Shown here piece after piece: positions 1-53,103 of a stretch of 64,000 bases of DNA. A program made the position numbers and the translations under genes. A model generated the notes under the pieces. It was not told the DNA's origin, did not search any database, and saw only the letters and a list, made by a program, of their open reading frames with translations. Positions within the stretch are counted from its first letter, which is position 1; each line of letters opens with the position of its first letter. The stretch comes from Buxus sempervirens (Eukaryota; Streptophyta; Magnoliopsida; Buxales; Buxaceae). The stretch lies in NCBI GenBank assembly GCA_947561395.2, contig OX387187.1, forward strand, positions 38,607,829 to 38,671,828, in the 5' to 3' direction.

Positions 1-930
1 AAACAGGGAGTTCAAGTCCTTGAGAGAGAGGTAATATGCGTAAATAAGGCTCAGAGATCGAGCCATTTTGCAAATCCCCGAAACAACCAAAACCGTATAC
101 ACAGTGCGGTTTCCACAGAACCGTCACTATATGTGCGGTTTCTAATGCAAATTCACCTCAACCGCACATATAGAGCGGTTCCAATTCAATTACGCTCGCC
201 ATGATTGCTGTCGACGTGGCTTAACGGCTGAAGCTTCCGGAAGCCACGTGGCAGCTTACGCGAGAAGCATGAATATCAACCGTACTGTGTGTGCGGTCGC
301 AACCGCATACACAGGGCGGTTGAGACCAAAATAACAAAAACCGCACATATACTGCGGTCAGCACATTCTTGGTTGGTTTTGAGCCTTAATTGCACATGCC
401 AGGCTTATTTACATGTAATATCGTTTAAGTAAATGTCCTCGTATTTTTTAATCTCCATTTACTTAAGATATTACATGTAAATAAGCAAACACCCCCCATT
501 TGAATGCATTAAAAATATTTCCAGACCCAAATTCCAAGTGAATAAAAAGTCAACTTTCTAGTTCCAGGCTAAATTCCGGTTTTCCAAGTTCGGTAAAAAG
601 ATTTAACATGTTGATACAAAGGTATTTATCAAGATTAAAAATCTCAAAAAATTCATTTATGCAATAACATTGCTAAAAACCTGATTACCGGGAAAAATTA
701 TCTTCAAATCTTGCTTTAAAAAAGATTTCATTTTCTGGGGTCAAAAGTCAACAAAATTCAACCCGAAAAAGTTTGACTTTATATAAAATATTGAATTTGG
801 GCCTTTTCCTTTGCGGATTTGGATTCAAATGGGTTAAGGATCTCAAACCCAACGCTAAGAATTGAAAATTCCAATAAAATATCTCTCCTTCAAGATTTAT
901 AAAAAATCGTGCAATTTTGGGGTGTTTACA
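1..930 (-). mobile_element. Partial LTR (LTR 0) of the TGTAGACACCCC family, minus strand
   Basis: The segment is an inverted copy of the first ~930 bp of solo LTR A (7252 onward). Read on the minus strand it starts TGTAAACACCCCAAAATTGC at 930, matching the start of the other family members. The rest of the LTR (TATA box, leader, 3' end) lies to the left of the window. The five bases after it (931-935, ACGTT) should be one half of a target-site duplication, but the other half is not visible. Whether it is a solo LTR or the 5' LTR of a full element cannot be decided here. It is closest to LTR A, sharing the same palindrome type and G-box cassette. Confidence 0.85.
90..360 (-). promoter_or_regulatory. 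U3 palindrome array and G-box of LTR 0
   Basis: About six short imperfect palindromes of the form AACCGCACATAT-GCGGTT occur at roughly 92, 130, 159, 279, 299 and 340. Between them sits a conserved cassette with the perfect palindrome GCCACGTGGC (243-252), which contains a G-box/ABRE core (CACGTG, ACGTGGC). The array lies in the upstream (U3) half of the LTR, as in the related LTRs. A role as an array of transcription-factor sites is inferred. Confidence 0.5.
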
Positions 931-1262
931 ACGTTGACATGCTGCGGCAACAATTTCCTTCTAAGGACCTTGAGGACAAGGTTCCGCTTCATGGGGGAAG
1001 TATTGATAAGACACGTAGATCAAGGAGGACATCAAAGCCAAACCCGAAGTATCATCAAGGATAAGGAGGAGATCGTGATCACTCAAAGCAGTTGCAGTTG
1101 GGTTAGGATTATCATTAGTCATTAGCTTATCTTATGCTTTATTCTAGGAGTTGGGATTAGCATATCAGTAGTTGTAGTTGGGTTAGGATTAGTCATTAGC
1201 TTATCTTAAGCATTATTATAGGAGTTGGGATTATCATTAGTTATTAGGATTACTGGTATAGT
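931..1262. repeat. Unrecognised segment with ~80-bp tandem repeat
   Basis: The stretch next to LTR 0 contains about two copies of an ~80 bp unit starting AGTTGGGTTAGGATTA (near 1096 and 1176), followed by a partial third copy. The preceding 100 bp can be translated, but I do not recognise a domain. It may be the edge of another retroelement into which LTR 0 inserted. Confidence 0.5.
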
Positions 1263-1422
1263 CGAACAGTTGTGGCCTATTTATATGCCACGAATAAGAA
1301 TAAGGAGGAAGCTATTTTTTATTCAGATACTTGTGGTTTATCCTCACCCAAAGAGGAATTGTTACTGTTTTCCATTGATAACAAGCTTTTGATTGGGACC
1401 TATCACTCACGTTCACATCTAT

Positions 1423-1855
1423 ATGGCCTCCAAGCAAAGACTTCAAGTCTTCAACTCAAGAAAGCTAAACCCAGTAACTTCAATTATTTCCAGTAAGCCG
1501 ACGAGTTTAAAAAATCAAACCCAATCCCCTAATTGGATTGACTTGAGACTCGTCAACTAAAGTTACCGCGAAATGGTTAATCCTATATATGCAATCGAAT
1601 CTATCACTATGTATTTCACGCATATGATCGAGACTTTTGTGCCTGTACGTATCTTTCACGAGGTGGAAATCAAATCTCTGTCCCTACTTGAGGAGACGAC
1701 AGGAGTTAGTGGTGTTAAATCCGAAAACCTTTGTGTCAGAGGGTCATCTTCAATTCCTACTCTTCCATATTATAGTGCTTACTCTGTTTATCTTTGGATA
1801 TCCCACACCATTATTGAATGAGTTCAAAGCACCAATTCCCTACCATGTGTGTGAG
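1423..1855 (-). repeat. Third copy of the ankyrin-gene 5' flank (promoter-only remnant)
   Basis: This block matches the 5' flanking DNA of ankyrin copy A (about 6840-7240) and copy B (about 39385-39785), including the text around CTTTCACGAGGTGGAAATCA and TTATTGAATGAGTTCAAAGC. No ankyrin coding sequence lies to its left, where it should be on the minus strand. That place is taken by unrelated sequence and LTR 0. It is best read as the surviving promoter side of an earlier tandem copy whose gene body was lost or lies outside the window. Confidence 0.7.
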
Positions 1856-1927
1856 ACCCTTACGAAACTTGAGCAGCGACTTTTGACTGCACAGTACATA
1901 CAGTTCATGCTTGCCGTGGGATTCTTG

Positions 1928-2070
1928 TCTGCCCACGAGACCTTGCGCTAAAAATTTTGCCTCAATTTTAAATTTTCAATCACCTTTGGAACCTTCTATT
2001 TGTGGAGGAGAGAAAGGAAACTGAGATTTTGCCCACGAGACACGAGACCTTGCGCTAAATTTTCTTTTCT
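1928..2070. repeat. Short direct repeat (~100-bp spacing)
   Basis: GAGACCTTGCGCTAAA occurs twice, near 1938 and 2043, each followed by a T-rich run. This is a small local duplication with no coding evidence. Confidence 0.5.
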
Positions 2071-2164
2071 CTCATTTGGTTTGAACAAAGAAAACTGGGA
2101 TTTTCTCTTCCTCTTTCTCTTCAATGTAAAAAAATTTCTTTTCCAAAAAGGTTGAGATTTTGAA

Positions 2165-2640
2165 AAAAAAAGAAATTTTACCATCACTTACCACTACTCA
2201 CAACATCCACATGCCCCACAACCGACACCACCGACCCCCCCCCACAGACACACGTACTAATGCTACCATTACTAGAACCCATCACTACCACCATTCACTG
2301 CTCCACCACTACCACTCCTACCATCACCCATGCTGTCCCACCATTAGTACTGCACCCCCACCACCACCCCTACTTCCTCAAAACCATCACCACCCCACGA
2401 CGTCACCATTTCTACCACCCCACCATGGCCCACAACCATCTTGCCACCATCTACTACCGCCACCCCCCTCACTACCACCACCTCTACCGGCCTACCACAT
2501 TCGCCACCACCATCATCATCATCATCGCTGCCACCGTTGTCAACCCATCAACCCTACCAACACCCATCCACTTGCACTCATCTGCAACAACCATCATCAT
2601 CTTATTAAAATATAATTTTTCTTTTCTTCCCATTTCTCAT
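2165..2640. repeat. C/CA/CAT-rich low-complexity tract
   Basis: Nearly 450 bp are built from CCACCA, CACCAT and CATCAT runs on the plus strand. They translate into His/Pro/Thr-rich open frames in two overlapping frames at once, which is typical of simple-sequence DNA rather than of a gene. A poly-T tract follows at about 2700-2720. Confidence 0.8.
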
Positions 2641-2934
2641 CTCATCTAAACACCGAAAGAGAAAAGAAAATTATTATTTTTCTTTTCTTCTATCTTCTCT
2701 TTTTTTTTTTTTTTTTTCTTTTTAGTTTTATTTTCTTTCCTTCCCAAATTCAGGGTTCCAAACACAACCTTAGGTTTTGGGGGAGAAATATTAGTTCCTT
2801 TACTAGTTGCTAGTAGTTCAATCATGAATACCCTTTTTGCATATATTTTAAAGGCAAATGCTACACAAAGACGTCGAGAAGTCAATCTCCCTTCAAAAAC
2901 CACTAATAGCTGCTGATCGATCATTCTTCCTTCA

Positions 2935-3390
2935 ATGACCCATTCTTATTGAGTTTATACCATCGATGATGCCATGTATATGTCACCTCTTCTGAATGCA
3001 ATCCTTCATCACCTTAATTCAATGTGGCTGAATTAGCTTTACTTTTTGTAATAGATAGTATAAGATTTTATCACATGCACTATTGATCATTCTAGTTTTT
3101 TTTTTTAATATTTCTTATGTATTAAATAAGGTAAAATTTTATTCATTTGGGTATATGACACTTTAACATCTCAGATAAGGTTTGTTTATAGTACATGCGT
3201 AAAGTAATAGGGGCCCTTCAAATGAGCTTTCACGTAGGGGGTCCCAAAAAACAAAGGGGAAAATGACCTAGCTTCTTGTTGTATGTCCACTTCAACTTCT
3301 GGTCGATATAGATGTATATTTTTGTTTTTTTCTCCTTTGTCTTCGTTAAGTCATTCTCTAATCTTTATTTCATTGATCTTTTATACTATG
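2935..3390. repeat. Start block of the tandem ankyrin unit (copy 1 of 3)
   Basis: The sequence from ATTGAGTTTATACCATCG through the GTAATAGGGGCCCTTCAAAT stretch recurs at 40735-41160, and its first ~100 bp also recurs at 11086-11190. The same block lies immediately after the CACTA remnant in both later positions. This shows that the array was made of repeated ~8 kb units before transposons filled it. No gene is seen in it. Confidence 0.7.
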
Positions 3391-4449
3391 GTTTGTGGGC
3401 CCCAAAAAAAAAAAAAAAAAAAAAAAATGGAGCAGCCTAACGACAAACCATGCATGAATTTTGTCGTAGGGTGCTTATGGGGTTTTTGGCTGTAGATATG
3501 GATCGTCTCCACCACTGTCTCCACCACATTCCAATTAAGTTGAAGAACTACAAAGCGGCTGTAGGATCGCTTGTTGGTTTAATTAAAAAAAATTCAATTT
3601 TTTTGCTTTTGTGAAGCGAAATGGAGAAACACACTTCATAATAAAAGGGATAAATTCTAAATGAAAAATATATCTATATCAAAATTTTTGCAATTAATAA
3701 AGCAACCACTAAACATATAATACGTTTCTATGGTGCGCACAAGGTTTCACGTGTTTATGTATGAAAAAGCAATAATATATTAGTATATTTTCTATGATAT
3801 ATATAAATAGGTTGGGTATTTCTCTCTCTTTCATTTTTATAGTATCTAAGGTATCACAAGTTTAAATTAAATTATATATTTTAAATTATCACGTAGAATG
3901 TCAAAGGTTACAATGAGACAATTATTTCAGACATACACCCACTATTAATTTCCAGGCTTTCTAAATATTTTAAATTAGATAGATTAATGAAATTATAAAT
4001 ATTGGTTTAAAACTAAAAATAAATCTTCAGTTGATTAAATCTCCTCTTACTTAATTTAGTATACATAAGAAACATAGATCCCATCTATCTACATCCGAAT
4101 AAGAACTATATAAATAAGAAATTTTCTTGTGCTAGTTTTTTCTCTCTTGAACGTGGGAGGCTTGGATAGATTGGACTTGCGGCTAGATGTATATATGCAG
4201 AAATTCTTCATATCTCAATTTTAATTAATATTATTGCTTATCCTACTAGAACAATGAAGTACATAGAGTGGAAAACCAAAACTTATACATGGTTTGTTGA
4301 TATAAGTTCTCAGCAAATAACGGTACAAGCTACGAAGTCTATTTATTGTCAGGGAGTAAATACACATGAAAAAAAGAAAAAGAATAAGAAAGAGCAAAGA
4401 TAACACCTGCCACACCTTAAATATTCTATACCATATATTTATATTATGC

Positions 4450-6137
4450 TTACGCAGACTCGCTTGCATTTGTATTTCCTCTATTATTATCGCCCTCCGT
4501 TGAAGATTTTCCGCACCCTTCAACAATCTTTTTGGGCAAGGAAAGAAACCTTATGGCGATGTATCCACAAGCCAAAATCAAGCCACAGATTCCTACCATA
4601 GCGATGTATAGTGTATATTGTGTGCCTGGATCCTCTGAATTAGCATATTGTGTGCCTGGATACTCTGAATTAGCGTATTGTGTGCCTGGATACTCTGAAT
4701 TAGCGTATTGTGTGCCTGGATCCTCTGAATTAGCGAGCAAAGAGTACAAGAAGGTGAAGAACATTGCACTGAGGGAGACCAAGAGTACCCTTTGCAGTGG
4801 AAATCCCATTGTGAGAATAACCATCATGAAAACAGATGAATAGAACCCCAGCGAGTTGCACAACGTAAACATAAAGCTTAGCATAGGGTTTTCTGTATAG
4901 GAAGAGTCTTCCTGATCTTCCAGATGCACACCCTGATTATTGGAAGAGTGATCGTGATCTTCCAGCTTTTTCAATCCAACCTCGTAAGTGGCTGTGGCAA
5001 TTAGCACAGCAACCACTAGTAGTGCATTGCGGACATCGCCTGGTTTGTCCCTCTCCTCGTGGTAGCGGAAGTACCTGAGTGAGTCCGGCAAAATATTCCA
5101 CGTGATTTGCTTAATATTTCGCGATCCGGCTCTGGAAAGAGCCTCTTGGGTCTGTCTGTTGTGGGATTCTCCTGCTGTTTTCACCACGTCTAGTGCTGTC
5201 AAGTCCTGTGAGTTCTTGGCGTTCACTTCGACCCACTCAACGTATTGCTTGCCTAGCAACATTTTAACAACCTGCACACACAGCTTATGCATATAAATGA
5301 AGAGAAAGCCATTAATGAAAGTTTTACTTTTTGTAGATTTAATTTGTGTAATTAAAGTAGTCTCGAATTATTTGGAGTTTATTAGAAGGAGAGAGAGAGA
5401 GTTTCATGATGAAAATTACGGATTAATCCTAGTTAGTCATGTTAGAATCCCAGATGTAGAAGAAGAAGCAATTGCCAAATCAACAACAGTTCCGAGGGTC
5501 TCAGCTCACACACAAGTCAATAGCAGTTGTAGAATCAACAATAGTGTTGGGAAAATCGACAATACTTCTGGTAATCAGACACATAATTTACATGGTTCGG
5601 CAAAGATGCTTGTGTCCATGGATCAATGACCGGAGCTAGTTTCTTCTCTAAATCTTTGATAATATGGTTGCGAGTATAAAACCCTCTTCTCCTAGTCGAA
5701 GTACTGCAATCTCATCTATACAATCAGAAAACCTATTCGAAAACACAACAATAAATAACCAAAATAGAAAACCTATTCGAAAACACAACAATAAATAACC
5801 AAAATACCCTTCCCGCGGTGTTGGGGCTCAACCTGTATTGACTGAATACAAGGCACATACAAAACAAATAGTTTGAGAGATCTCAGCTCTTGTCAAGTCA
5901 ATAATTGTTTATGAGAGATACTATCTCTTTCTCTGCAAATTTATGAACTTTTCAAACAATTTCTAGTTGTTTCTAACCAATTATATAACTATTAAATAGC
6001 AATCTCGATACAAAAGGGAATACCATTGAAACCACTAATCAATTCTTTGTGTTATTATCAAAGTATTAATAGAGGCATACGCCTGATTTCTATAACCACT
6101 TCCACAACTGAAATGGCTTAAGCACTGTAACCCCATA

Positions 6138-6188
<51 letters not shown>

Positions 6189-6778
6189 GCAAGGCTTACC
6201 TCGTCATGATCTGTGCATGCTACCCCCAGGTGCAAGATGGTGTTACCTTCATCATCTTTGTGCCTAAGAACCTCCTTCCTATTGTGTAACTTCAGCCATT
6301 CCATCAAAAACTTGAATGCTCCGAGTTGATTGCATTTCACAGCAAGATGTAGAGCCGTCTCTCGTTTCACAGTCAAATCTTCAAAGGCCATCGGACAAGC
6401 AGATAGGAACTTCTCTAAAAGATCTGTATTGCCTAAAATGGTCGCTTCATGCAGAGGAGTTCTTCCCTCACGTCCCTTCAACCGCACCAGTACGTTATCC
6501 ATCTCTACAAGGCCCTTAACAATCAGCTCATGACCCCCTCCCAAAGCAAGATGCACAGGTCTATAACCATCTTGGTTCAGCTTTCTTGCAAATGAAGGTT
6601 TCAGATTCACAACCTCCATAGCAAAAGCGGTATTTCCTTTCCTTGCAGCTATGTGTAGAGGGGTATCAATAAACGGGACTCGATCGATATTGTCAAGGAC
6701 AAACGAATCTTGCACTATTAATTCGTACAAGCCATTGATATCTCCTGCTTCTGCGACTTGCTTCAACCTTTGATCCAT
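4450..6778 (-). CDS. Ankyrin-repeat protein with C-terminal PGG membrane domain (BDA1/ACD6-like), copy A
   Basis: This is a two-exon gene. Exon 1 is 6778-6200 (193 codons) and ends at a GTAAGCC donor. Exon 2 is 5271-4450, after a TGTGTGCAG acceptor. The junction is in phase 0 and gives about 466 aa. Exon 1 starts MDQRLKQVAEAGDINGLYEL and carries four to five ankyrin repeats (TPLHIAARKGN, YRPVHLALGGGHE, RTPLHEATILGN, ETALHLAVKCNQ, NTILHLGV). Exon 2 completes the last repeat, then has the PGG-type segment (VRNALLVVAVLIATATYEVG) and further hydrophobic helices, including the FMMVILTMGFPLQ signature. Relatives (BDA1, ACD6, ITN1) are membrane proteins linked to plant immunity and cell-death or stress control. 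That role is known for the family and only inferred here. One odd feature is a fourfold 10-residue repeat in a loop between the last helices. No inactivating change is seen. Confidence 0.88.
4616..4735 (-). repeat. Coding minisatellite, 4 x 30 bp
   Basis: Four 30-bp units encode ANSEDPGTQY-type decapeptides (D/Y variation at one position) within exon 2 of ankyrin copy A. The paralogue at 36661-39318 has a single degenerate unit (NSGDQGTKY). The array keeps frame and lies between two predicted membrane helices. Confidence 0.93.
5297..6034 (-). other. Intron of ankyrin copy A, no other gene
   Basis: This is the body of the intron between the two exons of copy A. It includes a near-duplicate 40-bp run around 5725-5800 (AACCTATTCGAAAACACAAC twice) that also occurs in copy B. 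Around 5430 it keeps the uninterrupted sequence TAGTTAGTCATGTTAGAATC, which is the empty site of the hAT MITE present in copy B. Open frames here have no recognisable content. Confidence 0.7.
6141..6182. repeat. (TA)n microsatellite in intron of ankyrin copy A
   Basis: This is an uninterrupted TA run just inside the intron, about 20 bp past the exon 1 donor. Copy B has only a few TA units at the same place (38714-38722), so the tract expanded after duplication. Confidence 0.95.
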
Positions 6779-7826
6779 TTGGAGAGTGTAGGCCGGAGAG
6801 TGTTTATGGCTAACTTCGGAGACTTGAAGCTAGCTCACATGCACAATTATATGGCCTCCAACTAAAGACTTCAAGTCTTCGACTTAAGAAATAAAGCTAA
6901 ACCCAACTTCAATTATGTCCAATAAGCCGACGAGTTTTTAACCTAACCCCTAATCGGATTGACTGGGAGTCATCAACTAAAGTTGCATCTCCTTTCGTAG
7001 ATGCAACTTTAAATTATGTGCGCGTACGTATCTTTCACGAGGTGGAAATCAAATCTATTTCCGGAGACGACAGGATTTAGTGGTGTTAAATCCAAAAACT
7101 TTTGTGTCGGAGAGTCATCTTCAATTCACTACTATTCCATATTATATATATTGCTTACCCTGTTTTATCTTTGGATATCTCATAGCATTATTGAATGAGT
7201 TGAAAGCACTAATTCCCTAGCCATGTGTGTGACTTTCACTTGGTGAAACCCTGTAGACACCCCAAAATTGCACGATTTTTGATAAGTCTTGAAGGAGAGA
7301 AATATTTTATTGGAATTTTCAATTCTTAGCATTGGGTTTGAGATCCTTAACCTATTTGAATCCAAAGCCGCAAAGGAAAAGGCTCGAATTCAATCTTTTA
7401 TGCAAAGTCAAACTTTTTCGGGTTGAATTTTGTTGACTTTTGACCCCAGAAAATGAAATATTTTTTAAAGCAAGATTTGAAGATAATTTTTCCCGGTAAT
7501 TAGGTTTTTAGCAATGTTATTGCATAAATGAATTTTTTGAGATTTTTAATCTTGATAAATACCTTTGTATCAACATGTTGAATCTTTTTACCGGACCTGA
7601 AAAATCGGAATTTAGCCTGGAACTGGAAAGTTGACTTTTTATTCACTTGGAATTTGGGTCTGGAAATATTTTTAATGGATTCAAATGGGGGGGTGTTCGC
7701 TTATTTACATGTAATATCTTAAGTAAATGGAGATTAAAAAATACGAGGACATTTACTTAAACGATATTACATGTAAATAAGCCTGGCATGTGCAGCTAAG
7801 GCTCAAAACCAACAAAAAATGTGCTG

Positions 7827-8092
7827 ACCGTAGTATATGTGCGGTTTTGGTTAATTTGGTCTGAACCGCCTTGTATGTACAGTTGCAACCGCACACACAG
7901 CACGGTTGATGTTCATGCTTCTCGCATGAGCTGCCACGTGGCTTCCGGAAGCTTCGGTCGTTGAGCCACGTCGACAGCAATCATGGCGAGCGTAACTGAA
8001 TTGGAACCGCTCTGTATGTGCGGTTTAGATGAGTTTGCATGGAAACCGTATTAAAGTGACGGTTCTGTGGAAACCACACTGTGTGTGCGGTT
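7827..8092 (+). promoter_or_regulatory. U3 palindrome array and G-box of LTR A
   Basis: Short inverted repeats of the type ACCGYA-N-TGTGCGGT recur about six times (near 7829, 7864, 7886, 8005, 8043, 8070), with GCCACGTGGC at 7933-7942 between the two halves of the array. The layout is the same as in LTR 0, read in the opposite orientation. A function in transcription is inferred from position upstream of the TATA box. Confidence 0.5.
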
Positions 8093-8292
8093 TTGCTTGT
8101 TTCGTGCATTTGCGAAAAGGCTCGATCTCTGAGCCTTATTTACACATATTACCTCTCTCTCAGGGACTTGAACTCCCTATTTCACCCTCTGAAACTTCTA
8201 GTATTACAACAATTCAAGGCATTTGCTTGAATTGGAATAATCTAGAAGGCTTTTTGGCCTACCCTTGGGACTTTTCTACCCTTGGCTTTGCC

Positions 8293-8560
8293 TATAAATA
8301 GAGGGGTCCTCCTCTTGCAAATGGCTGATAATTTGAAGCTTGGAAGCTCTGCAAGAAGAGGGGAAACTCTGCTGGATTGCTGCCTCAAGTGCTCAAGTCA
8401 TCAAAGGTAAAGCTCCATTTGGTTTTATTGCCTCCTCTTTACATTTCCAACTCCCAACTTCTACCTTTCTGTAGTGTAAGGCCTTGGGTGTTGTTTTGTA
8501 GCCCCAAACCTCTTCCAAAGTACCTGGGAATCCTCTCTAGCCGTAAAACGTGAAGAGAGA
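8293..8560 (+). promoter_or_regulatory. Core promoter and conserved leader of LTR A
   Basis: TATAAATA is at 8293-8300. The intron-like segment 8407-8474 (donor AG|GTAAAG, acceptor CTTTCTGTAG) begins 114 bp downstream. AGCCGTAAAACGTGAA (8539-8554) follows 65 bp after the acceptor, inside a small stem formed by CTCTCT and AGAGAG. The same order and spacing recur in five other LTRs in the window. Confidence 0.65.
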
Positions 8561-10136
8561 GCCTTGGGAAAAGGAAGATGGGATGGATCCTTTAGGATTA
8601 GAACCTACATGTGATGAAGAGCATGTTTAATGGTTATTTTGAACCTATGGTTGCTTTTCTGATTTGATCATGTTTTAGATTTGGAGAAGAGATGTGATCC
8701 ATGCTATCTATAGCAATGGATTTTAAATTTCTCCTAGATATGTGTTTTTACCAATATCACACACTTTTTCACTGTTTTGCATCAAATAGGCTAGATCTTG
8801 GATTCTCCATGCTCAATATGGAAAATCTGAGATCTCTGGCCTTAGAATGAATTTCTAGGACTTCATGAGTTGTTTTTCATGATTTCAAGTTATTTTGGTC
8901 GAATCCACTTGCACACATGCACTGGTTTCACATTTTTACTCAAGGTTTTTCAAAACAGGGCAGTATCTGTACCATGTCTTAGAATGCTCATAACTTCATC
9001 CTCCGGAAGAATTTTTGAGTGATTCCAAAGACATGTGATAGATGAGCATGTCTAGTTTATATCTGGAAAATTTCATCTACTTTTATGGAGCCAATTTTTG
9101 ACACCATCTGTTCAAAGTCAGTAAGTCAGTTCAGCCCAGATTGCTGAACTTGCCGCTTTGATGGTGCACCATTTGCTCAATTTTAATCCGTTTTGAGTGA
9201 TTCCAGTTTCTGAGTTTTCTTTAAGAAGTCTATTTTCATTTCCAACTGGTTTCAGCAGATTGTGATCTGATTTGTGCCTTGGGTGCTCAATTGACTCAGA
9301 GGTGCTCGCTGGCATAGTCCAGAGCTAACCTGTGGTCTTCTAGGCCTGTTCAAGAGAGCAGACAAGCCACATTTGGATAGAGTTTGGTGTGAGGTTTTTT
9401 TCTTTGGAAAGATGGCACCACATACGTCCTCCATACCAATTTTCATGGATTTTTATTGAGCCAAACTCCACGAATAGGATTTTGAAAATGCCTACTTAAC
9501 ACTTTTTCCAAGTTATAACAGCAGATTTCAGATGTGGATATCTCTCTCATTTTGAATCGGATTGAGTTGGTTTTTTACTGTATACTATACTAGATACCAG
9601 TTTTCAAATGGCTTTGGTTTCAATGGATTTGGATTTAAATTGAAGGAGTTATGGTTAATCGAAGCTTTCAAGCTCTTTTAGTCAGATTTTGCCAAATTTG
9701 CCTTGAAATGGTTTTACTTCATTTTTCACCTTGATTTTTATTCACTCATGAAGTTCTAAGAGGTGATATATCCATGGAGAGAGTTCATACTTATTGGACT
9801 ACTCATGTGGAATAATCACTTACATTTTGCTTACTTTTAAGCAACCTTTGTCTATTTTGATTAGCAAATAATCCTTAGCATAAGCAAGCATGCGGCAACC
9901 GTCTTAGACGGATGAGTGGGGGTGCCTAACACCTTCCCCCGCTCATAAATAATTCCCCTTACCTGATCTCTGGATTTTTCCTTGTATTAGAGCTACTTTG
10001 GCTATATTTGACATTTATGATCCCTTTGGTGTCCATTCACACCTTAAGATGGATGGTGGCGACTCTTTACATTTATCGATCCCCGCGTGACGATATCGGA
10101 AGTCATCCTAGATGACATTTCCATGTCTCACAAACC

Positions 10137-11817: not shown

Positions 11818-11906
11818 TGTAGACACCCCAAATTGCACAAACAATCATCAAAAATCATTATCTCCTTGAAAGCCAGCACAGAAATTGAAGAAAATGAACT
11901 TTTACC

Positions 11907-12052
11907 TGTATCCGGTTACTCAGACCGGATACAAGTACTCCTTTATGTATCCGGTGGAACATACCGGATACATGTGAGCCTTAGTGTATCCGGTACCATA
12001 TACCGGATACCTTAAGGCCCTTGTGTATTCGGTCTGATATACCGAATACATT
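11907..12052 (+). promoter_or_regulatory. U3 palindrome array of LTR B (TATCCGGT type)
   Basis: Four consecutive palindromes of the form GTATCCGGT-N-ACCGGATAC (the last one GTATTCGGT-N-ACCGAATAC) occur at about 35-40 bp intervals. The sequence is unrelated to the GCGGT-type palindromes of LTR A, but the position in the LTR and the layout are alike. Confidence 0.6.
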
Positions 12053-12204
12053 AAGTTTGCTCAAAATTAGGGTTTTCCGAGAGAAATCACTTGTTACCAT
12101 CATGTCCCTCATTTAATGAGGGGAAATCTCGGAAACAACCCTAGGGTTAAGGTTGGGGGGTTCTAGACATTAAGTGGTGTCTACCAATGACCTTAGCCTT
12201 TGCC

Positions 12205-12459
12205 TATAAATAGGAGGCTCCTCTTCAAGCAAAGGACCAAGTTTTTGGAGATCAAAGAACTCCGAGTGAAGAAGGGAACCGCTGCCGGATTGCTTCCAGA
12301 ACCCCAGGTAAGCCTCAACCTTCATTTATTTTCTGTATTTAATTTATTAGATCTAGATCTCTTCTTCTACCTTTCTGTAGAATAAAGCCTCTTTTTGTGT
12401 GTGGAAATCCTTCCCTGGCTCAAATTATCTCAAGACTCCCCCTAGCCGTAAAACGTGAA
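12205..12459 (+). promoter_or_regulatory. Core promoter and conserved leader of LTR B
   Basis: TATAAATA is at 12205-12212. The intron-like segment 12308-12380 (CAG|GTAAGC...CTTTCTGTAG) starts 103 bp downstream. AGCCGTAAAACGTGAA is at 12444-12459, 64 bp after the acceptor. The flanking stem is weaker here than in LTR A. Confidence 0.65.
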
Positions 12460-14099
12460 TGCGGGATCTAGGAGAAACGAGACTGGGGATTGACCCTAGT
12501 GCTAGAACCCATGTAGCATAAGGCTTTTGAATGATTGAAAACCGTTCTATAATCAAAGTACCCTTGATTATCTCGAAGAACCGTGTTTAACGGGGAGAGA
12601 GAACAGAGGGAAACGATAATGGAACGGAACCCTAGGCTATGCTAGAACCTATCTGGTTGAATCTATATGCATGATATGTTGTTGTATTAATCTTGCTTGG
12701 TTTTTCACTCTTGCACACATATTACACTCTTTTGGCGGGATAGGCTCATATTTGGGGGTTTATTACAGTTATTGTGATAAATCTCAAATAAATGGCCTCA
12801 ATCAATTCTGGAGTGTTTTCAAGTGATTTTCAAAAGTTTTGGATTCATCTCACACGAATCTCACACACTTTATCACTTTTTCGGATTTGGTTTTCTTCAA
12901 AAAGGGCCTAACTGGACAGCACCTGTACCCTTACTTCGGACGCTCATAACTTCATCGTCCGGATGAATTTTGGAGCGATTCTAGAACCATGGGAAAGGTG
13001 AGGCTGTCTAGTTTATGTCCACCAAATTTCATAAAGTTCCATCAAACGGATTTTTGACACCTCTCTGTCGAAGTTAAGTGGACAGTTCAGGTTCAAGTAC
13101 AGAACTTGTCACTTCGACGGACCGCCATGTGTTCGTTTTAAATCCGATTTGAGTGATTTTTGTTTCTGAGTATTCCTTTATGAGTCTATTTTCAAATCCA
13201 ATTGGTTTCATAATTTTTTGGATTCCATTTGAATTATTGGTAGCCGATTTACTCAGAACTGTTCATTTGTACTTTTCTGGGTAAATCTGTGATCTTCGGG
13301 GCCTGTTCGGGAGACCACCCAAGGCACATCCGAAGGGATTTTTGTATGAGGCTAGTTTCTTTTGAAATATGGCCATACAGACTTCAATCACACCAAATTT
13401 CGTGGATTTTTATGAAGTGGTTTTTTCTATGTAATTTTCCAAAGTTGCCCACTTATCACTTTTAGAAATCCCCAGCAGCAACTTCAAAGGAGCATAACTC
13501 CTAGGATTTTTATCGGAATGAAGTGAAATTTTGCATGAGACTCTTATTTACCCTAATCTTTCAAATGGATTTGGTTTGGTTCAATTCAAAATTGGATTTG
13601 AATGATTTCAAGGCAAATGGCATACTTTTTACCGAATTTTCCGGATTTGATTCAACTTGGTTTTTGAGCAACTTGTGCTTTGATTTCCATCTTTTGAGAT
13701 ATTCCAGAATGATGTTGACATAAGAGAGGATCTAGAATCCATTTAGATCTTCATGTGAAAATATCATACATTAGTCCTTTTTCAAGGTTTTCTATGATTT
13801 TAGCAAGCTTTCTATTTTTGCATGAACATACACTTGGCAACCACTTCGTGTGGATGAATGGGGGTGCCTAACACCTTCCCCCGTTCATAATCTAATCCCC
13901 TTACCCATCTCTGGATTTGATTTTCAAGTAGGGTTATTTTTACCTTAGAATTGGCATTTTTGCACTTTTTAATTATTTTTGATCCTTTGGTGTCCATTCT
14001 CACCCCAAAATCATGAATGGTGGCGACTCTCCCATTTTTGCGATGAGCCCGTGTGTTGACGGAGGGATGATCATTCCGGTGATTTTCCCATGTCTCACA

Positions 14100-14748: not shown

Positions 14749-14851
14749 TGTAGACACCCCAAATTGCACTACCGAATGAGAAAGTAATAAAAACATGTAA
14801 TTAAAGCTTAAAACAGGTCAAAAATGCATAAACACTGACAAAGCAGGCTTT

Positions 14852-14965
14852 GCCCGTATTTCATTCACGGGCCGGTCGCGCCCGAAATAGCTTTACGGTC
14901 AGGCGCACCCGTATTCGAAATACGGGCACCATTGGACCGTGTATCATTTACGGTCACTAAAGACT
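14852..14965 (+). promoter_or_regulatory. U3 palindrome array of LTR C (CCCGTAT type)
   Basis: Inverted repeats of the type GCCCGTAT-ATACGGGC and GACCGTG-TTTACGGTC recur three to four times within ~115 bp. They share the arrangement but not the sequence of the arrays in LTRs A and B. Confidence 0.55.
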
Positions 14966-15156
14966 CGTGCGAGTTTTATTCTTCTCTCGATTTCCGAGCT
15001 TTATATTTAGTCCAATATCCCTTTAAATGAGCGAATTATGTCTTTTATTCGCTGAAGCCACCTTGGTTGGCTATGGATGGGCATTATTTCTGTTTTTGAC
15101 TCTATCCTGAGGATCATGATATATCCTTCTGGACCAGCCTTGCCCCTGTGCTTGCC

Positions 15157-15565
15157 TATAAATAGAGGTGAGATTCTCAAGCTAGGGGCCACGAAAATTT
15201 GAAGTCTAAGGAGCTCCAATAGAAGAAGAGGAACCCCTGCTGCCTTGCTTGCTCAATCCAGGTAAGTCCCTTTTCCTTTTTATTTTCTGTCTTCAATTCT
15301 AGATGTAATAGGATCTTCTTTATTGCTGTAGAATAAGGCCATATTTTGTATCTGTATTCCTAAACCTGCCTCCAAGTACCTCAAGAGTCTCTTTAGCCGT
15401 AAAACGTGAAGAGAGAGCTAGGGGAAAAGAGAACAGGTGGATCCCTAGAATAGAACCCCATATTTGTTTTTCTCTTTTTTTATAGAATAAAGCCTGTGAT
15501 TGTGTTTGTGTAACCAAACCTATCTCCAAGTACCTCAAGAATCCTTTCTAGCCGTAAAACGTGAA
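15157..15565 (+). promoter_or_regulatory. Core promoter and duplicated leader of LTR C
   Basis: TATAAATA is at 15157-15164. The intron-like segment 15262-15331 (CAG|GTAAGT...GCTGTAG) starts 105 bp downstream. AGCCGTAAAACGTGAA at 15395-15410 lies 64 bp after the acceptor. A second identical copy is at 15550-15565, produced by a tandem duplication. Confidence 0.65.
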
Positions 15566-16557
15566 GAGAAAGCTAGGGGAAAAGAGAACAGGTGGATCCG
15601 TAGGGTAGACCCCCATGTGCTCTAATTTGTGAGATGTGGCTGCTTTAAATATCTTGATCATGTTTTAATGCTTTTTATGATATATCTGAATGAATAACAT
15701 GAATCCATGATGTTTATAGCATGAGATCCCCACTTTTTATAAAAATTGGATTTTCCACATATTTTGCACCTACAGCACTGTTTTTGTGATTTTTGTGAGT
15801 TTAGGCTAAGATCTTGGATTTATCATGATCAATATGGTAGATTTGAATCCAAAAGCCTGAAAATAAATTCTAGGGTTTCATGAGATGGTTTTTGAGTCCT
15901 TTTTCATTATTGAGAGAAGACCCTACGGTCTAAATTCTTCCCTTTTGATGTTCTTCATCAACGTAGGTATTTTTGGTTTTTATTTTTTGATTTAATGTGA
16001 AATTTGGGCTTTATCTATATCCTGGAATGTTCAAGTTCAATTTTGAAATATTTTACAAAAATCATATTTTTCTAGATTTCTAGAATTTGACTTGAAGCCA
16101 GATTTTTGGATTTTTCACTTTAAATCGATTTCATTGGATTTTATCGCAATTTTATTTTGATCATGAAACCCTAGGAATGGTATGATCATATTTGAAAGTT
16201 CTGGATCAATCAGACTATTCATATGAAAAAACCATATATTTTTGTCTTTTTTGTGATTTTTCTTGATTTTTATAGCAAGCTTTTTCCTTTAGTTTAACAT
16301 GAACAATACCTGGCAACCACCTTGTGTGGATGAATAGGGGTGCCTAACACCTTCCCCTGTTCATAACCTAATCCCCTTACCCATCTCTGGTTGTTTTTTT
16401 TAGAAGGGTTATTTTTACCCTAAAATTGCCTTTTGTGCTTATTTAATATTTCGGTGTCCATTCACACCTAAATTGAATGGTGGCGACTCTTTGTTTTATT
16501 TAATCCTGTGTGATGATAGAGGAAGTCATTGGATTTGATTTTTTCCCATGTCTCACA

Positions 16558-16819: not shown

Positions 16820-17262
16820 CTCCAATTTGGCTTTCAAAAGTGGTCAAATTCCCCCAACTCATGCCTTAGGCTTGAATTGGAAGGATCTAAACACACTTTT
16901 GCGTCTACCCTTGGGACTTTATTACCCTTGCTCTTGCCTATAAATAGAGGGACTCTCCTCTAGCAAATGACTGGAATTTTGAAGATTAAGAGCTCTTGAA
17001 GAAGAAGGGAACCTTTGCCCAATTCTCCACTCAAGTCCTCAAGCAACCAAGGTGAGATCCTAGCCCTTCTCTCTCATTTTATTTTCAATTCAAGCACTCT
17101 CTCATCTTCTACCTTTCTATAGTGTAAGGCCTTATTGTATTTGAAACCCTAAACCATGCTTAAAGTACCTTAAGCATCCTCGCTAGCCGTAAAACGTGAA
17201 GAGAGAGTTAGGGGAAACAAATGTTGGAATGGATCCTTTAGGTTTAGAACCATTTTTCATGA
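16820..17262 (+). mobile_element. LTR fragment D (TGTAGACACCCC family)
   Basis: The fragment covers only the promoter-leader part of the LTR: TATA 16939-16946, intron-like 17052-17122 (AAG|GTGAGA...CTTTCTATAG), motif 17185-17200 with its stem. It matches LTR A best (GGGACTTT-ACCCTTG upstream of TATA). Both LTR ends are missing. On the right it breaks directly into ankyrin coding sequence, so it probably replaced the first part of that gene. Confidence 0.75.
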
Positions 17263-18218
17263 TATATTTGTATGATAATGTATTGCATGTGGCAACATCC
17301 ACATATCAGCACGAGGTAATTAGCTTAACCTGCACCCTATTTTTCATTAATCTTTATCTTTTTCTTCTTGGCTACTCTTATGTATGTATTATATTTGTAT
17401 ATCTTTTATTAAACCCTTTTGTTGATTATGTAGTTCGTCAAAGTGTTGCTTAGCAAGAGACATGTTAGAGGGTTGGAAGTAAACACCATCAATTCTGAGG
17501 GTTTGACAGCCCTTTACATCTTGGAACAAACAAGAGAAAGGAAAAAACTAGGGCTCTTCCGCCTTGTCGGAGCTTTAAAATCCCAGGAGATTTCAGCAGA
17601 TACGAATGGCTCTGTGCAAGACAAGGCAGAGTCTCAAAAGGCTAAATATCTCTATTCTACGTTTGAATCTATCACGTACTTCCATTACAATGTGGCTAGA
17701 GACTCCCCACATGAAGTGCGTAATGCACTTCTGGTGGTGGTTGGGCTGATTGCCACCGCCACTTACCAAACTGGGATCTCCCCTCCCACCGGTAATTTGC
17801 AGTACACCACCGACGGTGGATGAGTCCGTCATGGACATTCGTGGCTGCTAGGTAAAGAATTTAGTTTTGTTTATACGCATTTCTCAACTCTTTGGGATTT
17901 CACTTGTCTCTTATAATGATGATCATCCTCACAATGGGTTTCCCTCTGCAAAATCTGTTGGTGATCGCCCTAATCTCCATGGTGGCTAATTACGCCTATT
18001 CACTGACAAGTATTGAACCCAAAGGAATCTCAGACGATGCCCCACACTCTCTGTTCACTGCTCTTTCTATCCATTTTCTTCCAATTTTTGGCACATTTCT
18101 TCTTTTATTCATGCGGGAAAAGATTTTTGCCAAAAGAAAATACAGAGAAGCTCCAGCAGATGTTGAACAGGTTGCTCATGTTAGAGATGCAGTCTCTATG
18201 AAACAAATTAATGCGTGA
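17263..18218 (+). pseudogene. Truncated ankyrin/PGG-domain gene (third copy)
   Basis: Only the end of the ankyrin exon survives (NVLHVATSTYQHE, ending at a GTAATT donor near 17322). An intron to about 17432 follows, then an exon starting FVKVLLSKRHVRGLEVNTIN. The PGG segment is clear (VRNALLVVVGLIATATYQTG), but the frame stops at 17821-17823 soon afterwards. The following membrane-helix segment (SLIMMIILTMGFPLQ, to 18218) is in another frame, with stops around 17880. Upstream coding sequence is replaced by LTR fragment D. It is more diverged from copies A and B than they are from each other, and lies in the opposite orientation. Confidence 0.85.
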
Positions 18219-21400: not shown

Positions 21401-22519
21401 AGTCATTAATAGAGTGAGTAGAGGAAGTGAAGCAATCGGAAAAGAAAGTGACAGCTTCATCCTGGATACTAGGGTTGTCAGAAAACCAACCATTTCCTGA
21501 CAACAAATTCTTGTGCTTTCGGACTTGCAGAGAAGCATGGAAGAACTTTGTGTTACAGTCCCCTTCTTGGAGCCACTTAACTCTGGATTGCTGTCTATAA
21601 AAGGTTTCCTGTTGGGAGGTATTAGAGATTAGCTCCTTCTTTAAAGTGTGAAGAAGCTCATACCTATGCTGATCCCAATGATTTTGAAGGTCATTTTCCA
21701 GATCTGAAATTTTCAAAGATAAAAGCTCTATTCTGCGATGAACATCACCAAAGACCTCCCAATTCCACTTTCGGAGAGTCGCTCTTAAGTGTTTTAATTT
21801 CCTAGAGAAGACATATAGAGGAGAGCCCCACAGATTAAAGTTCCATGCATTTTTTACCACGTCCAAAAAGGAAGTATGAGAAATCCACATTTTTTGAAAT
21901 TTGAAAAGGCCCACACCCGAAGGTCTCATAGACTGCACAAGAGATAACAATAAAGGACAATGGTCCGAGCAAACCCGAGGCAAATGTGAGACTTTTAAGG
22001 AAGCTGCTGCATGAAGACCCTGATGGTTAACCAAAATTCTGTCCAGCCTTGCCCAAATTCTTCTTTGACCACTCTGGTCATTGCACCAAGTGAATTTATC
22101 TCCACAAAAACCTAAATCCTTAATACCAGCACACTGAACAAAGTCTTGAAAGTCATGCAAGGATCGGGGATCAGGATGACGACCTCCTAACTTTTCCTCA
22201 ACAGCAAGAATGGCACTGAAATCACCTCCAATGAGCCAAGGATGAGTGACAGATGCAGAAAAAGCCATCAAGTCATTCCAGAGAATTCGCCTCTCAGACA
22301 CATCACATTTAGCATAAACAAAAGTTATCATGAAGGGAGAAAAATTGGTGACACTGTTCGAACTGACCAATGCTGTAACATACTGGTCCGAGGCCACAAC
22401 GATGTCCAACTTAATAAAATCAGACCAGAAGACCCAAATCTTGCTATCATTTCCATTGTTACAAAAGGAACGTTTCAGCTTTATTCTTTTGGCTACTAAT
22501 TTGCATCGAGTTGCATTAG
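18492..22519 (-). CDS. LINE ORF2: endonuclease-reverse transcriptase-RNase H (main part)
   Basis: About 1340 uninterrupted codons read from SNATRCKLVAKRIKLKRSFC. In order they hold the rest of an APE-type endonuclease (WLIGGDFSAIL, RLDRILV, SDHCPLLL), reverse transcriptase (active-site FADD at about 20577-20588, preceded by RQGDPLSPLLF), a zf-RVT-like Cys/His segment near 19370-19480, and a C-terminal RNase H domain (NVDGASKGNPG near 18940). The protein would copy LINE RNA into DNA at nicked target sites. The first 35 codons lie at 25141-25036, beyond the jacalin insertion. No frameshift or stop is seen, so this copy is young by coding criteria, but it can no longer make full-length ORF2. Confidence 0.93.
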
Positions 22520-23968
22520 ACATAGGCTCAAATGCACGAAGGTTTAACGGGGTGAGAGAAATCACACTCGTTTATGACCGTTGCATTGATTCGATTAGGT
22601 TTAGGTATGATAAGAAAGGTAATCCCGTCTACGCTGAAATGCACGGAGGCAATGGAGGCAACCACACCACCAATATCAGATTACAGTACCCAGAGGAGTT
22701 CTTGACGACGGTTAGCGGGCACTACTGTCCGCTGGTGCACGGTGGTCCAACGGTGATCTGAGCACTGACATTCAAGAGCAATCGGAGAACGTTTGGACCG
22801 TTTGGGGTGGAAGAAGGGACACCCTTCTCGTTCCCCATGGATGGAGCACTGATTGTGGGGTTTCAAGGGAAAAGTGGGTGGTACCTTGACGCAATTGGGT
22901 TTCTTTTGTCTCGTCCTCACTCAAACCTCATTTCAAAGATCCATCAGAAGCTACAAAAGCTCAGGGCAGTGGCTATGTGTGAGACATGGGAAAAAATCAA
23001 TTTAATGATTTCCTCAATCATCACACGGGATTAAATAAAATAAAGAGTCGCCACCATTCAATTTAGGTGTGAATGGACACCAAAATATTAAATAAGCACA
23101 AAAGGCAAATTTTAGGGCAAAATATCTCTCCTAAAAAAAACAACCAGAGATGGGTAAGGGGATTAAGTTATGAACAGGGGAAGGTGTTAGGCACCCCTAT
23201 TCATCCACACAAGGTGGTTTCCAGGTATTGTTCATGTTAAATTAAAGGAAAAAGCTTGCTATAAAAATCACACAAAATCACAAAAAGAAATAAAATTGTA
23301 TGGTTTTTTCATATGAATAGTCTGATTGATCCAGAACTATCAAACATGATCATACCATTCCTAGGGTTTCATGATCAAAACAAAATTGAGATAAAATCAA
23401 ATAAAATCAATTTAAAGTGAAAAATCCAAAAATCTGGTTTCAAGTCAAATTCTAGAAATCTAAAAAAATATGATTTTTATAAAATATTTCAAAATTGAAC
23501 TTGAATAGTCCAGTACATAGGTAAAGCCCAAATTTCACATTAAATCCGAAAATAAAAACCAAAAATATCCACATTGATGAAAAACACCAAAAGGGGAGAA
23601 TTTAGATCGTAGGGTCTTCTCAAATAATGAAAAACAATTTAAAAAACACATCATGAAACCCTAGAGTTTATTTTCAGGCTTTTGGATTCAGATCTACCAT
23701 ATTTATCATGATAAATCCAAGATCTTAGCCTAAAACCACAAAAATCACGAAAACAGTGCTGTAGGTGCAAAAGTGGCAAAAATCCAAATTTTGGAAAATA
23801 GTGGGGATCTCATGCTATAAACATCATAGATTCATGTTATTCATTCAAATATATCATAAAAAGCATTAAAACATGATCAGGATATTTAAAACAGCCACAT
23901 CTCACAAATTAGAGCACATGGGAGTCTACCCTATGGATCCACCTGTTCCCCTTTCCCCTAGTTCTCTC

Positions 23969-24384
23969 TTCACGTTTTACGGCTAGAGAGACTCTTGAGG
24001 TACTTAGAGATAGGTTTGGTTACACAAACACAATCAAAGGCCTTATTCTATAAAAAAAGAAAAAACAGATATGGGGTTCTATTCTAGGGATCCACCTGTT
24101 CCCCTTTCCCCTAGTTCTCTCTTCACGTTTTACGGCTAGAGAGACCCTTGAGGTACTTGGAGGCAGGTTTAGGAATACAAAAACAGATATGGCCTTATTC
24201 TACTGCAATAGAGATGATCCTATTACTTCTAGAATTGAAGACAGAAAAATAAAAAAGGATAGGGGACTTACCTGGATTGAGCAGGCAGGCAGCAGGAGTT
24301 CTTTCTCTTCTCTTGGAGCTTCTTAGAATTCCTTGACTTCAAAATTTCGTGGTCTTTTGCTTGAGGAAAGGCCCTCTATTTATA
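23969..24384 (-). promoter_or_regulatory. Core promoter and duplicated leader of LTR E
   Basis: On the minus strand, TATAAATA (24384-24377) is followed after 113 bp by the intron-like segment 24271-24200 (CAG|GTAAGT...AG) and 63 bp later by AGCCGTAAAACGTGAA (24137-24122). A second exact copy is at 23984-23969. Confidence 0.65.
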
Positions 24385-24587
24385 GGCAAACACAGGGGTA
24401 TGGTTGGTCCAAGGTTTGGCAAGATAGAGTTTCAGTTTGAGTTAAACACAAGATCATGCCAATCCTTTATCCACAAGGATAAATGAGATAATTCGAACAG
24501 ATAAATAAGAGAATTCGCTTATCCAAGAGAGATATTTGGGTGCAGATAAGGCTCAAAAATCAAAAAGGTAAAATTCGCACAAAGACC

Positions 24588-24706
24588 CCGTGCCCGTATA
24601 TATATTACGGTCGCGCCCTGCCCGTATTATTAATACGGGCACGCCGTGACCGTACATCAACTGCAGGTATGACCAGTCCGTAAACAAAATACGGTCATAA
24701 CCAGTT
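24588..24706 (-). promoter_or_regulatory. U3 palindrome array of LTR E (CCCGTAT/ATACGG type)
   Basis: Palindromic motifs such as GCCCGTATT-AATACGGGC (near 24618-24640) and CCGTAA-N-TACGGTC recur within ~120 bp, upstream of the TATA box on the minus strand. The type is the same as in LTR C. Confidence 0.55.
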
Positions 24707-25023
24707 TGGCCAGATTTTACACTTTTTTGACCTGTTTCAAATCCCAATTAATATTTTCAATTATTTTCTCATTTTAGTGCAATTTGGGGTGTCTACACTA
24801 TGAAATCGTTAAGCCCCAAAAATGGAGAAGAAGCTCCCCATGCCAGGCCTCAACGGGCTCATGCTTAGGCACAGCTTTGTTCTCTGCCTGTCAGTGGTCT
24901 TGTGTCTGGCCTTACAAACGTACAAGGATTGTGGTAGATGTACATGGATATTTTAAGTTGTCCGAGAACTGTCACGTAGTTATGCGAAATCACTTGGCCG
25001 CTGTAAAAAAAAAAAAAAAAAAA

Positions 25024-39318: not shown

Positions 39319-39789
39319 TTGGAGAGTGTAGGCCGGAGAGTGTTTATGGCTAACTTTGGAGACTTGAAGCTAGCTCACATGCACAATTATATCATATGGC
39401 CTCCAACTAAAGACTTCAAGTCTTCGACTTAAGAAAGCTAAACCCAACTTCAATTATTTCCAATAAGCGGACAAGTTTTTAACCTAACCCCTAATCGGAT
39501 TGACTGGGGGTCATCAACTAAAGTTGCATCCCCTGTTGTAGATAATCGTTGATTCTTTAAATTGTTGAGAGAGAAGAAGAAAATTATGTGCGCGTACGGA
39601 GACGACAGGATTTAGTGGTGTTAAATCCAAAAACTTTTGTGTCGGAGAGTCATCTTCAATTCACTGCTATTCCATATTATATCTATTGCATACCCTGTTT
39701 TATCTTTGGATATCCCACAGCATTATTGAATGAGTTGAAAGCACTAATTCCCTAGCCATGTGTGTGACTTTCACTTGGTGAAATAGACT

Positions 39790-52840: not shown

Positions 52841-53103
52841 TTCATGTTTTACGGCTAGAGAGGATGCTTGAGGTACTTTGAGAGTGGTTTGGGGCTACAA
52901 TCACAAGCATGGCCTTGTCTACAAAAAGGTAGAAGGAGAGAGTGCTTTTGAATGAAAAATAAATGAAGAGACAAGTGTAGGAATTTACCTTGGTAGCCTG
53001 GGAGAGTTGAGTGGAGAGTTGGGCAAAGTTTCCCTTCTTCTTCAAGAGCTCTTCAAGCTTTAGATTGTCAGCCCTTTGCAAGAGGAGAGCCCCTCTATTT
53101 ATA
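52841..53103 (-). promoter_or_regulatory. Core promoter and conserved leader of LTR F
   Basis: On the minus strand TATAAATA (53103-53096) is followed after 115 bp by the intron-like segment 52988-52919 (AAG|GTAAAT...TTTTTGTAG), and 63 bp later by the leader motif with a single substitution. Nested LTR G sits only 13 bp upstream of this TATA box, cutting it off from its U3 palindromes. Confidence 0.6.

Follow-up and report, generated by a model that had tools for sequence, protein, structure and literature searches.

A length-constrained leader with a putative mini-intron and a near-invariant 16-mer inside the long terminal repeats of a Buxus sempervirens retrotransposon family

Introduction

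Introns are generally absent from plant long terminal repeat (LTR) retrotransposons, with Ogre and EVADE named as exceptions in excerpts of a 2025 review (PMC12786077). Ogre transcripts are partly spliced, according to a passage of PMC6317226. BARE1, a Ty1/copia element of barley, has a demonstrated plant retrotransposon intron, whose composition contrast with its exons, as excerpted, is similar to that reported below (PMC3735527). In the present study, we analyzed a 64-kb window (C9:38607829-38671828 of the 676.5-Mb Buxus sempervirens genome, hereafter the window), in which six LTRs (A to F) share a leader consisting of a TATA box, a GT..AG segment resembling a short intron, and the 16-mer AGCCGTAAAACGTGAA.

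The Buxus leader resembles the described systems and differs from them in where the intron would lie. As far as the excerpts go, spliced capped BARE1 RNA is translated and unspliced RNA is replicated, the two pools come from two TATA boxes, and the 104-nucleotide (nt) intron lies directly behind gag, outside the LTR; the excerpts likewise place the Ogre intron in the coding part, whereas the putative Buxus intron lies inside the LTR leader. In deltaretroviruses, a splice donor is located in the R/U5 portion of the LTR, close to an RNA structure that controls unspliced RNA. Their acceptor is far downstream, whereas the Buxus donor and acceptor both lie inside the LTR, about 70 nt apart. In the open-licence literature, we found no described case of an LTR-leader intron in plants and no paper containing the letters of the 16-mer; the phrase "intron in the LTR" occurred in an excerpt on an intron engineered into a lentiviral vector leader (PMC5542766). 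Judged from this search, plant retrotransposon introns are known from the coding part (Ogre, BARE1), and their placement in an LTR leader appears to be new.

Results

Recurrence of the leader in the genome

A sequence-only reading of the window had described the leader in LTRs A to F. The 16-mer was found at eight sites, seven of them exact and one, in leader F, with a single substitution, which reproduced the earlier counts. When up to three mismatches were allowed, 8 matches were counted in the window, compared with a mean of 0.44 in shuffles, none of which (of 100) reached 8. The TATA-to-GT distances of leaders A to F were 114, 103, 105, 113, 113, and 115 nt, and these, like the GT..AG lengths listed in Table 1, were identical to the values given before. 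For leader E, this holds for the GTAG end (72 nt), which was used instead of the AG that the calling script had taken three bases earlier (69 nt). The AG-to-16-mer distances were 64, 63, 63, 62, 62, and 62 nt; their constancy was retained, and each was one less than the earlier figure because of the counting convention. Two descriptions were corrected: positions 22978 (E) and 51092 (F) mark the 3' ends of LTRs that lie on the minus strand, and LTR D, although its leader is complete, is a truncated piece whose likeness to LTR A spans about 16870-17251.

Genome-wide, the exact 16-mer occurred 13,370 times and its reversed control never. The TATA 14-mer TTGCCTATAAATAG, which is common to at least one other LTR family, occurred 13,401 times (reversed, 2), and 7,950 exact 16-mers had CTATAAATAG 224-254 nt upstream (backward control, 0). 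We then considered 100 sites chosen by the 14-mer alone, among the matches listed, on contig C1 up to 8.5 Mb. The 16-mer accompanied 83 of them at up to four mismatches and 82 at up to two, compared with 1 and 0 for the reversed motif; it was exact in 63, had one mismatch in 18, two in 1, and four in 1, and was lacking in 17. By eye, 15 of these 17 belonged to another LTR family (13 were aligned), 1 was unrelated, and 1 (L095) belonged to the same family. By hand count, the 18 single mismatches comprised 10 CpG transitions at two CpGs, 7 cases of a shared variant, GTGGA, and 1 other change.

A second sample was anchored on the 16-mer and consisted of the first 30 loci among the matches listed on C1, some of them from one LTR. 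A TATA-like box lay at 239-257 nt in 21/30 and at 385-396 nt in 5/30, and none was present within 700 nt in 4/30. Part of the 16-mers without CTATAAATAG at the expected gap came from exon 2 duplications, as the second copy. In LTR C, the acceptor, exon 2, and 16-mer are tandemly duplicated and the acceptor-to-16-mer distance is retained; LTR B contains at 12584-12640 what appears by eye to be a decayed second exon-2 unit (AACCGTGTTTAACGGGGAGAGAG). The genome search for the 16-mer and its spacing, named by the sequence-only reading as a check, showed that the pattern recurs far beyond the window. The observation of this leader is therefore real.

Two further observations concern related leaders. 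A second LTR-like family (L044, L045, L048, L049, L067-L070, L072, L093, L121, L130, and L138) shares the TATA context and arranges its leader similarly, but keeps a motif of its own around GCGGAAGCG, which lies about 225-250 nt past the TATA box and precedes GGTAA donor-like sites. On C1, three leaders with the same start sequence, among the matches listed, lie about 61.0 kb apart (8895170, 8956197, and 9017248), which suggests a tandem segmental duplication.

Conservation and spacing

Spacing was measured in 89 leaders (the 83 TATA-anchored ones and the six of the window), using the best-scoring GT..AG pair of each. In 85 of them, the GT..AG segment was 66-75 nt long and the AG-to-16-mer distance was 61-65 nt; L097, L098, L099, and L103 did not conform. 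Only 12 of 890 dinucleotide-shuffled leaders met both ranges with the same caller, and the claimed fixed spacing, as opposed to random indels, was thus borne out. Among 25 leaders less than 90% alike, the standard deviation was 1.2 nt for the AG-to-16-mer distance, 2.4 nt for the intron, and 20.9 nt for TATA-to-GT (7.7 nt minus one outlier).

Identity was compared among 15 hand-picked divergent leaders. It was 0.952 for the 16-mer, 0.861 for the 3' splice site, and 0.798 for the donor, followed by the stem arms (0.657 and 0.587), exon 2 (0.627), the intron (0.538), the downstream part (0.527), exon 1 (0.494), and the upstream part (0.460). In 10 leaders less than 80% alike, the 16-mer was the best 16-column window (0.981) and the 3' splice site came next (0.95), against a mean of 0.787; both sets contain only leaders that bear the 16-mer, and TATA identity in them is fixed by the sampling. 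These results indicated that conservation of the 16-mer greatly exceeds that of neighbouring LTR sequence, as the sequence-only reading had it.

Such conservation might be only apparent if a leader without present function had been amplified recently from a few master copies. One LTR pair is indeed 99.6% identical, and one subfamily is common among the sampled leaders. However, divergent subfamilies share the blocks at 80-95%, while their other segments are 46-66% identical, which argues against this explanation for the master lineages; single copies may be dead. We consider it very improbable.

The 16-mer could also be read as the C-terminus and stop codon of a short spliced upstream frame (AGC CGT AAA ACG TGA, ...SRKT stop), and in LTR A and part of a large subfamily the spliced frame is open from an exon 1 ATG to this TGA. 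As a general account, this reading is largely refuted: an open frame from ATG to the 16-mer exists in only 20/85 leaders (another frame, 11/85; the third, 0), the peptides are unrelated between subfamilies, and an AG-to-16-mer distance of 61-65 nt keeps no frame. Its probability appears close to negligible.

The putative mini-intron

The donor AGGTAA was present in 83/85 leaders and the acceptor TGTAG in 80/85. The T content was 51% in the GT..AG segment and 20% and 31% in the flanking exons. The segment therefore combines a conserved donor, a T-rich tract with a YAG acceptor, and a U-rich interior, features of spliceosomal introns, and its composition and splice-site conservation suggest that it is likely a plant-like intron. 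The earlier claim of a spliced intron inside the LTR fits the spacing as well, and we keep the intron as putative. An intron in this position could in addition increase expression (intron-mediated enhancement). Avoidance of upstream ATGs was considered and set aside: in 25 leaders, exon 1 contained no ATG in 2,116 nt, but exon 2 contained 21 in 1,979 nt.

In LTR elements, the 5' end of the RNA is the source of R-U5 in both new LTRs, so a spliced template would yield an intron-less LTR. This expectation was not part of the earlier account. A search for the exon junction gave one match (2 mismatches), which proved to be a family copy that contains the intron and has a changed donor region, and no intron-less copy. 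For comparison, a 21-base donor pattern of the same subfamily had 3,998 sites; because the junction and donor patterns are of unequal length, the ratio of 1 to 3,998 is indicative. An intron-shortened TATA-to-16-mer spacing was found in 0/83 TATA-anchored copies and in 0/26 of the 16-mer-anchored loci with a TATA-like box.

The 16-mer and its proposed hairpin

Two classes of arms surround the 16-mer, CTCTCT/AGAGAG and CCCCCT/AGGCGGGA, and both can pair. The first class had been assigned to most copies in the window; it is perfect in A, both E copies, and F; D and the two C copies have it in imperfect form, and B has CCCCCT/TGCGGGA in its place. In one subfamily, the 5' arm lacks one C and the 3' arm lacks one G. 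One pair further out, a C-G/T-A change occurred four times on a tree of the leaders, partly via a one-base length change.

The stem was evaluated in 64 distinct sequences. In total, 89.6% of cells were paired, compared with 84.9% in shuffled sets, and the outer stem paired in 86.7% of cells. There were 52 double-changed cells against 23.9 shuffled, and the covariation score was 0.266 against 0.172; for the paired fraction, the double-changed cells, and the score alike, none of 500 shuffles was as high. In leader A, the five outer pairs had a predicted mean pairing probability of 0.91. Taken together, these sequence comparisons make a hairpin around the 16-mer plausible.

Several candidate identities were tried and rejected. 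An Rfam scan of the window gave no match at the gathering score; near leader A, there were two sub-threshold matches to small nucleolar RNAs (E 0.56 and 4.7), too weak to assign the leader to a known RNA family. As for pairing of the 16-mer elsewhere in L074, L075, LTR A, or LTR C, the longest exact complement was 8 nt. In viral contigs, 13 stretches matched the 16-mer, none with the CT/GA arms or the leader around it, which spoke against carry-over, and leader A had no match in plasmids.

The carrier element

Loci L074 and L075 form an LTR-internal-LTR element, with a 1,820-bp LTR match at 99.6% and the target duplication ACTGC. Direct TG..CA terminal repeats with a target-site duplication of 4-6 bp were found for L074/L075 and for the solo LTRs A and B. 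In L074, the primer-binding site TGGCGACTCTGCTGGGGAC, which we take to be of the tRNA-Arg type, lies two bases behind the LTR, and a polypurine tract is present in L074/L075. Their gag frame matched Pfam Retrotrans_gag (E 0.00029, 21.4 bits, under the curated cut-off of 24.1), the continuation of gag in L075 had no Pfam match, and no frame of at least 120 aa was found between gag and the 3' LTR.

Coding domains came from L150, a single 7-kb piece of a tandem array that is located between two of its leaders and tied to them by position. Its domain order is RVT_1, RT_RNaseH, RVT_3 (a second RNase H), and rve, which is the Ogre/Retand order of reverse transcriptase (RT), RNase H (RH), second RH, and integrase (INT); a G-patch frame lies upstream, and the reading frame changes near 4682-4709. 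A second RNase H between RH and INT is described as a feature of angiosperm Tat elements (Ogre, Retand) in the portion of PMC6317226 that was available. The likeness to Ogre/Tat also includes a primer-binding site, TGGCGACTC..., directly behind the LTR and the presence of gag. On this domain evidence, we assign the leader family, at clade level, to the Tat-type (Ty3/gypsy) LTR retrotransposons as a large family. The array from which L150 was taken, at C1:8464042-8571564, comprises eight minus-strand leaders that recur head-to-tail every 15.32 kb or so, as in a tandem array of full-size retroelements.

Feature coordinates and neighbouring sequences

The features of the leaders in the window are collected in Table 1.

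Table 1. LTRs, putative mini-introns, and 16-mer sites in the 64-kb window (positions count from its first letter).
Feature	Position	Strand	Remarks
LTR A, solo (TGTAGACACC...TGTCTCACA)	7252..10132	+	Target-site duplication AACCC; ends match the LTRs of the LTR-internal-LTR element
Leader A TATA box	8293..8300	+	Core of 14-mer TTGCCTATAAATAG
Leader A putative GT..AG mini-intron, 68 nt	8407..8474	+
Leader A exon 2 spacer, 3' splice site to 16-mer, 64 nt	8475..8538	+
Leader A proposed hairpin	8533..8559	+	Arms CTCTCT 8533-8538 and AGAGAG 8554-8559, flanking the motif
16-mer A, AGCCGTAAAACGTGAA	8539..8554	+
LTR B, solo	11818..14099	+	Target-site duplication CTGGG/CCGGG (one mismatch)
Leader B TATA box	12205..12212	+
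Leader B putative mini-intron, 73 nt	12308..12380	+
16-mer B	12444..12459	+	Alternative (C-rich/G-rich) arms beside it
LTR C	14749..16557	+	Polypurine tract AAAGAGGGGGCAGC in front, as for a 3' LTR
Leader C putative mini-intron, 70 nt	15262..15331	+
16-mer C, copy one	15395..15410	+
16-mer C, copy two	15550..15565	+	64 nt after a second acceptor-like AG at 15485
LTR D fragment, leader complete	16870..17251	+	Adjoins a PGG-domain coding piece downstream
Leader D putative mini-intron, 71 nt	17052..17122	+
16-mer D	17185..17200	+
LTR E	22978..24797	-
Leader E putative mini-intron, 72 nt	24200..24271	-	Acceptor choice shifted 3 nt
16-mer E, copy one	24122..24137	-
16-mer E, copy two	23969..23984	-
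Leader F putative mini-intron, 70 nt	52919..52988	-
16-mer F	52841..52856	-	One substitution

Directly downstream of LTR D, a PGG-domain coding piece (17434-17823) had a Pfam match just under the cut-off, and the sequence separating the two contains a donor-like GAG/GTAATT and an acceptor-like ATGTAG. It is possible that LTR D and this piece (16870-17823) form an LTR-driven chimeric gene or pseudogene. A minus-strand gene with ankyrin-like and PGG-like parts is present in two copies about 32 kb apart (4450-6829 and 36661-39369), whose repeat blocks are 90-97% alike; the PGG match was obtained in the first copy, and the ankyrin part was recognized by eye. On the minus strand, 18492-22571 contains a LINE-type open frame of 1,359 aa with RVT_1, zf-RVT, and RVT_3 matches and a weak endonuclease match.

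Discussion

We tentatively propose that the leader serves spliced and unspliced RNA pools and that the 16-mer hairpin is an RNA signal in cis, a reading whose chances we place just short of even. Transcription would start about 30 nt past the TATA box, and the first exon would end at a strong plant 5' splice site, followed by a T-rich mini-intron of 66-75 nt. In the second exon, the near-invariant 16-mer with its pairable arms would lie 61-65 nt past the 3' splice site. The intron would be removed from the translated transcript pool, and the packaged, reverse-transcribed RNA would remain unspliced, because an LTR copied from a spliced template would lack the intron. The hairpin may then act in cis in the selection, dimerisation, or export of unspliced RNA. 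The 16-mer also occurs in L074/L075, an element with gag and without a long pol frame, which makes it a candidate cis signal of the RNA.

Several results weigh against this proposal. The number of stem pairs with a double change was 3 against 3.4 in shuffles, and further pair types numbered 9 against 10.5. Arms slid by +2 scored 0.284, above the observed 0.266, because the arms are CT/GA repeats. RNAalifold recovered the outer stem at only -2.24 kcal/mol and did not recover the CGT/ACG inner stem. On the tree, which was built without the hairpin, the arm class switched once. The outer-stem probability was at least 0.5 in 9/16 unspliced and 12/16 spliced leaders, and a hand count gave no clear preference between U-G (14) and C-A (11) single states. 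Outside the stem, the distance from the 16-mer to TAGAACC downstream was equally tight (standard deviation 3.1 nt, or 1.4 nt minus one outlier, in 23/25 leaders), so the whole stretch from the donor to about 60 nt past the 16-mer appears length-constrained, not the acceptor side alone. Finally, the absence of intron-less copies would be equally expected if the segment were never spliced. The tight downstream spacing and the two covariation measures not above shuffles slightly lowered our confidence in the proposal. The stem suggested by the sequence-only reading thus stood insofar as both arm classes pair, and its covariation consists mostly of one class switch, with two of five measures within shuffles.

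The stem results bear on a different explanation, in which the intron is real, the 16-mer is a downstream DNA site for a host transcription factor, and the arms pair through their CT/GA composition only. The motif is conserved at unpaired positions also, double changes are absent from the inner stem, and the slid arms outscore the structure. The 16-mer holds an ACGT core, as plant bZIP and bHLH sites do. However, two arm classes that differ at several positions both pair, and the one-base length change is matched between the arms. In addition, the distance to the TATA box is more variable than that to the 3' splice site, although the distance to the downstream block is equally fixed. On balance, we regard a DNA site as rather unlikely.

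Since no intron-less copy was found, either the segment is unspliced or the replicating RNA is strictly unspliced. If unspliced, the T-rich tract, TTCTACCTTTCTGTAG, and AATAAA/TGTAAA would serve as a leader signal, for RNA 3' processing or otherwise, and the match to a donor would be incidental. The junction search and both anchored samples agree with this, and exon 2 often starts with AATAAA or AATAAG; many leaders, however, start it with TGTAAA or TGTAAG instead. Moreover, the AGGTAA donor is kept in 83/85 leaders despite a poorly conserved interior, and the composition shift resembles that of the BARE1 intron as excerpted from PMC3735527. An unspliced segment is therefore decidedly unlikely in our estimate, and, on the anatomy of the putative intron, we prefer a strictly unspliced replicating RNA.

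In its most complete form, the account would be that of an LTR that carries a whole mini-intron, in which splicing marks the messenger, the hairpin flags the unspliced genomic RNA, and the sorting of the two is very strict; taken as a whole, it is doubtful. If true, the strictness would be expressed in the searched subfamily, which has about 4,000 donor sites and yielded no intron-less copy. The leader would thus bear on how LTR retrotransposons allot a single transcript to translation and to replication. With an intron inside the LTR, each reverse-transcribed spliced RNA would leave a heritable footprint, and the 13,370 motif copies would make the leakiness of RNA sorting countable and offer a 16-nt candidate signal.
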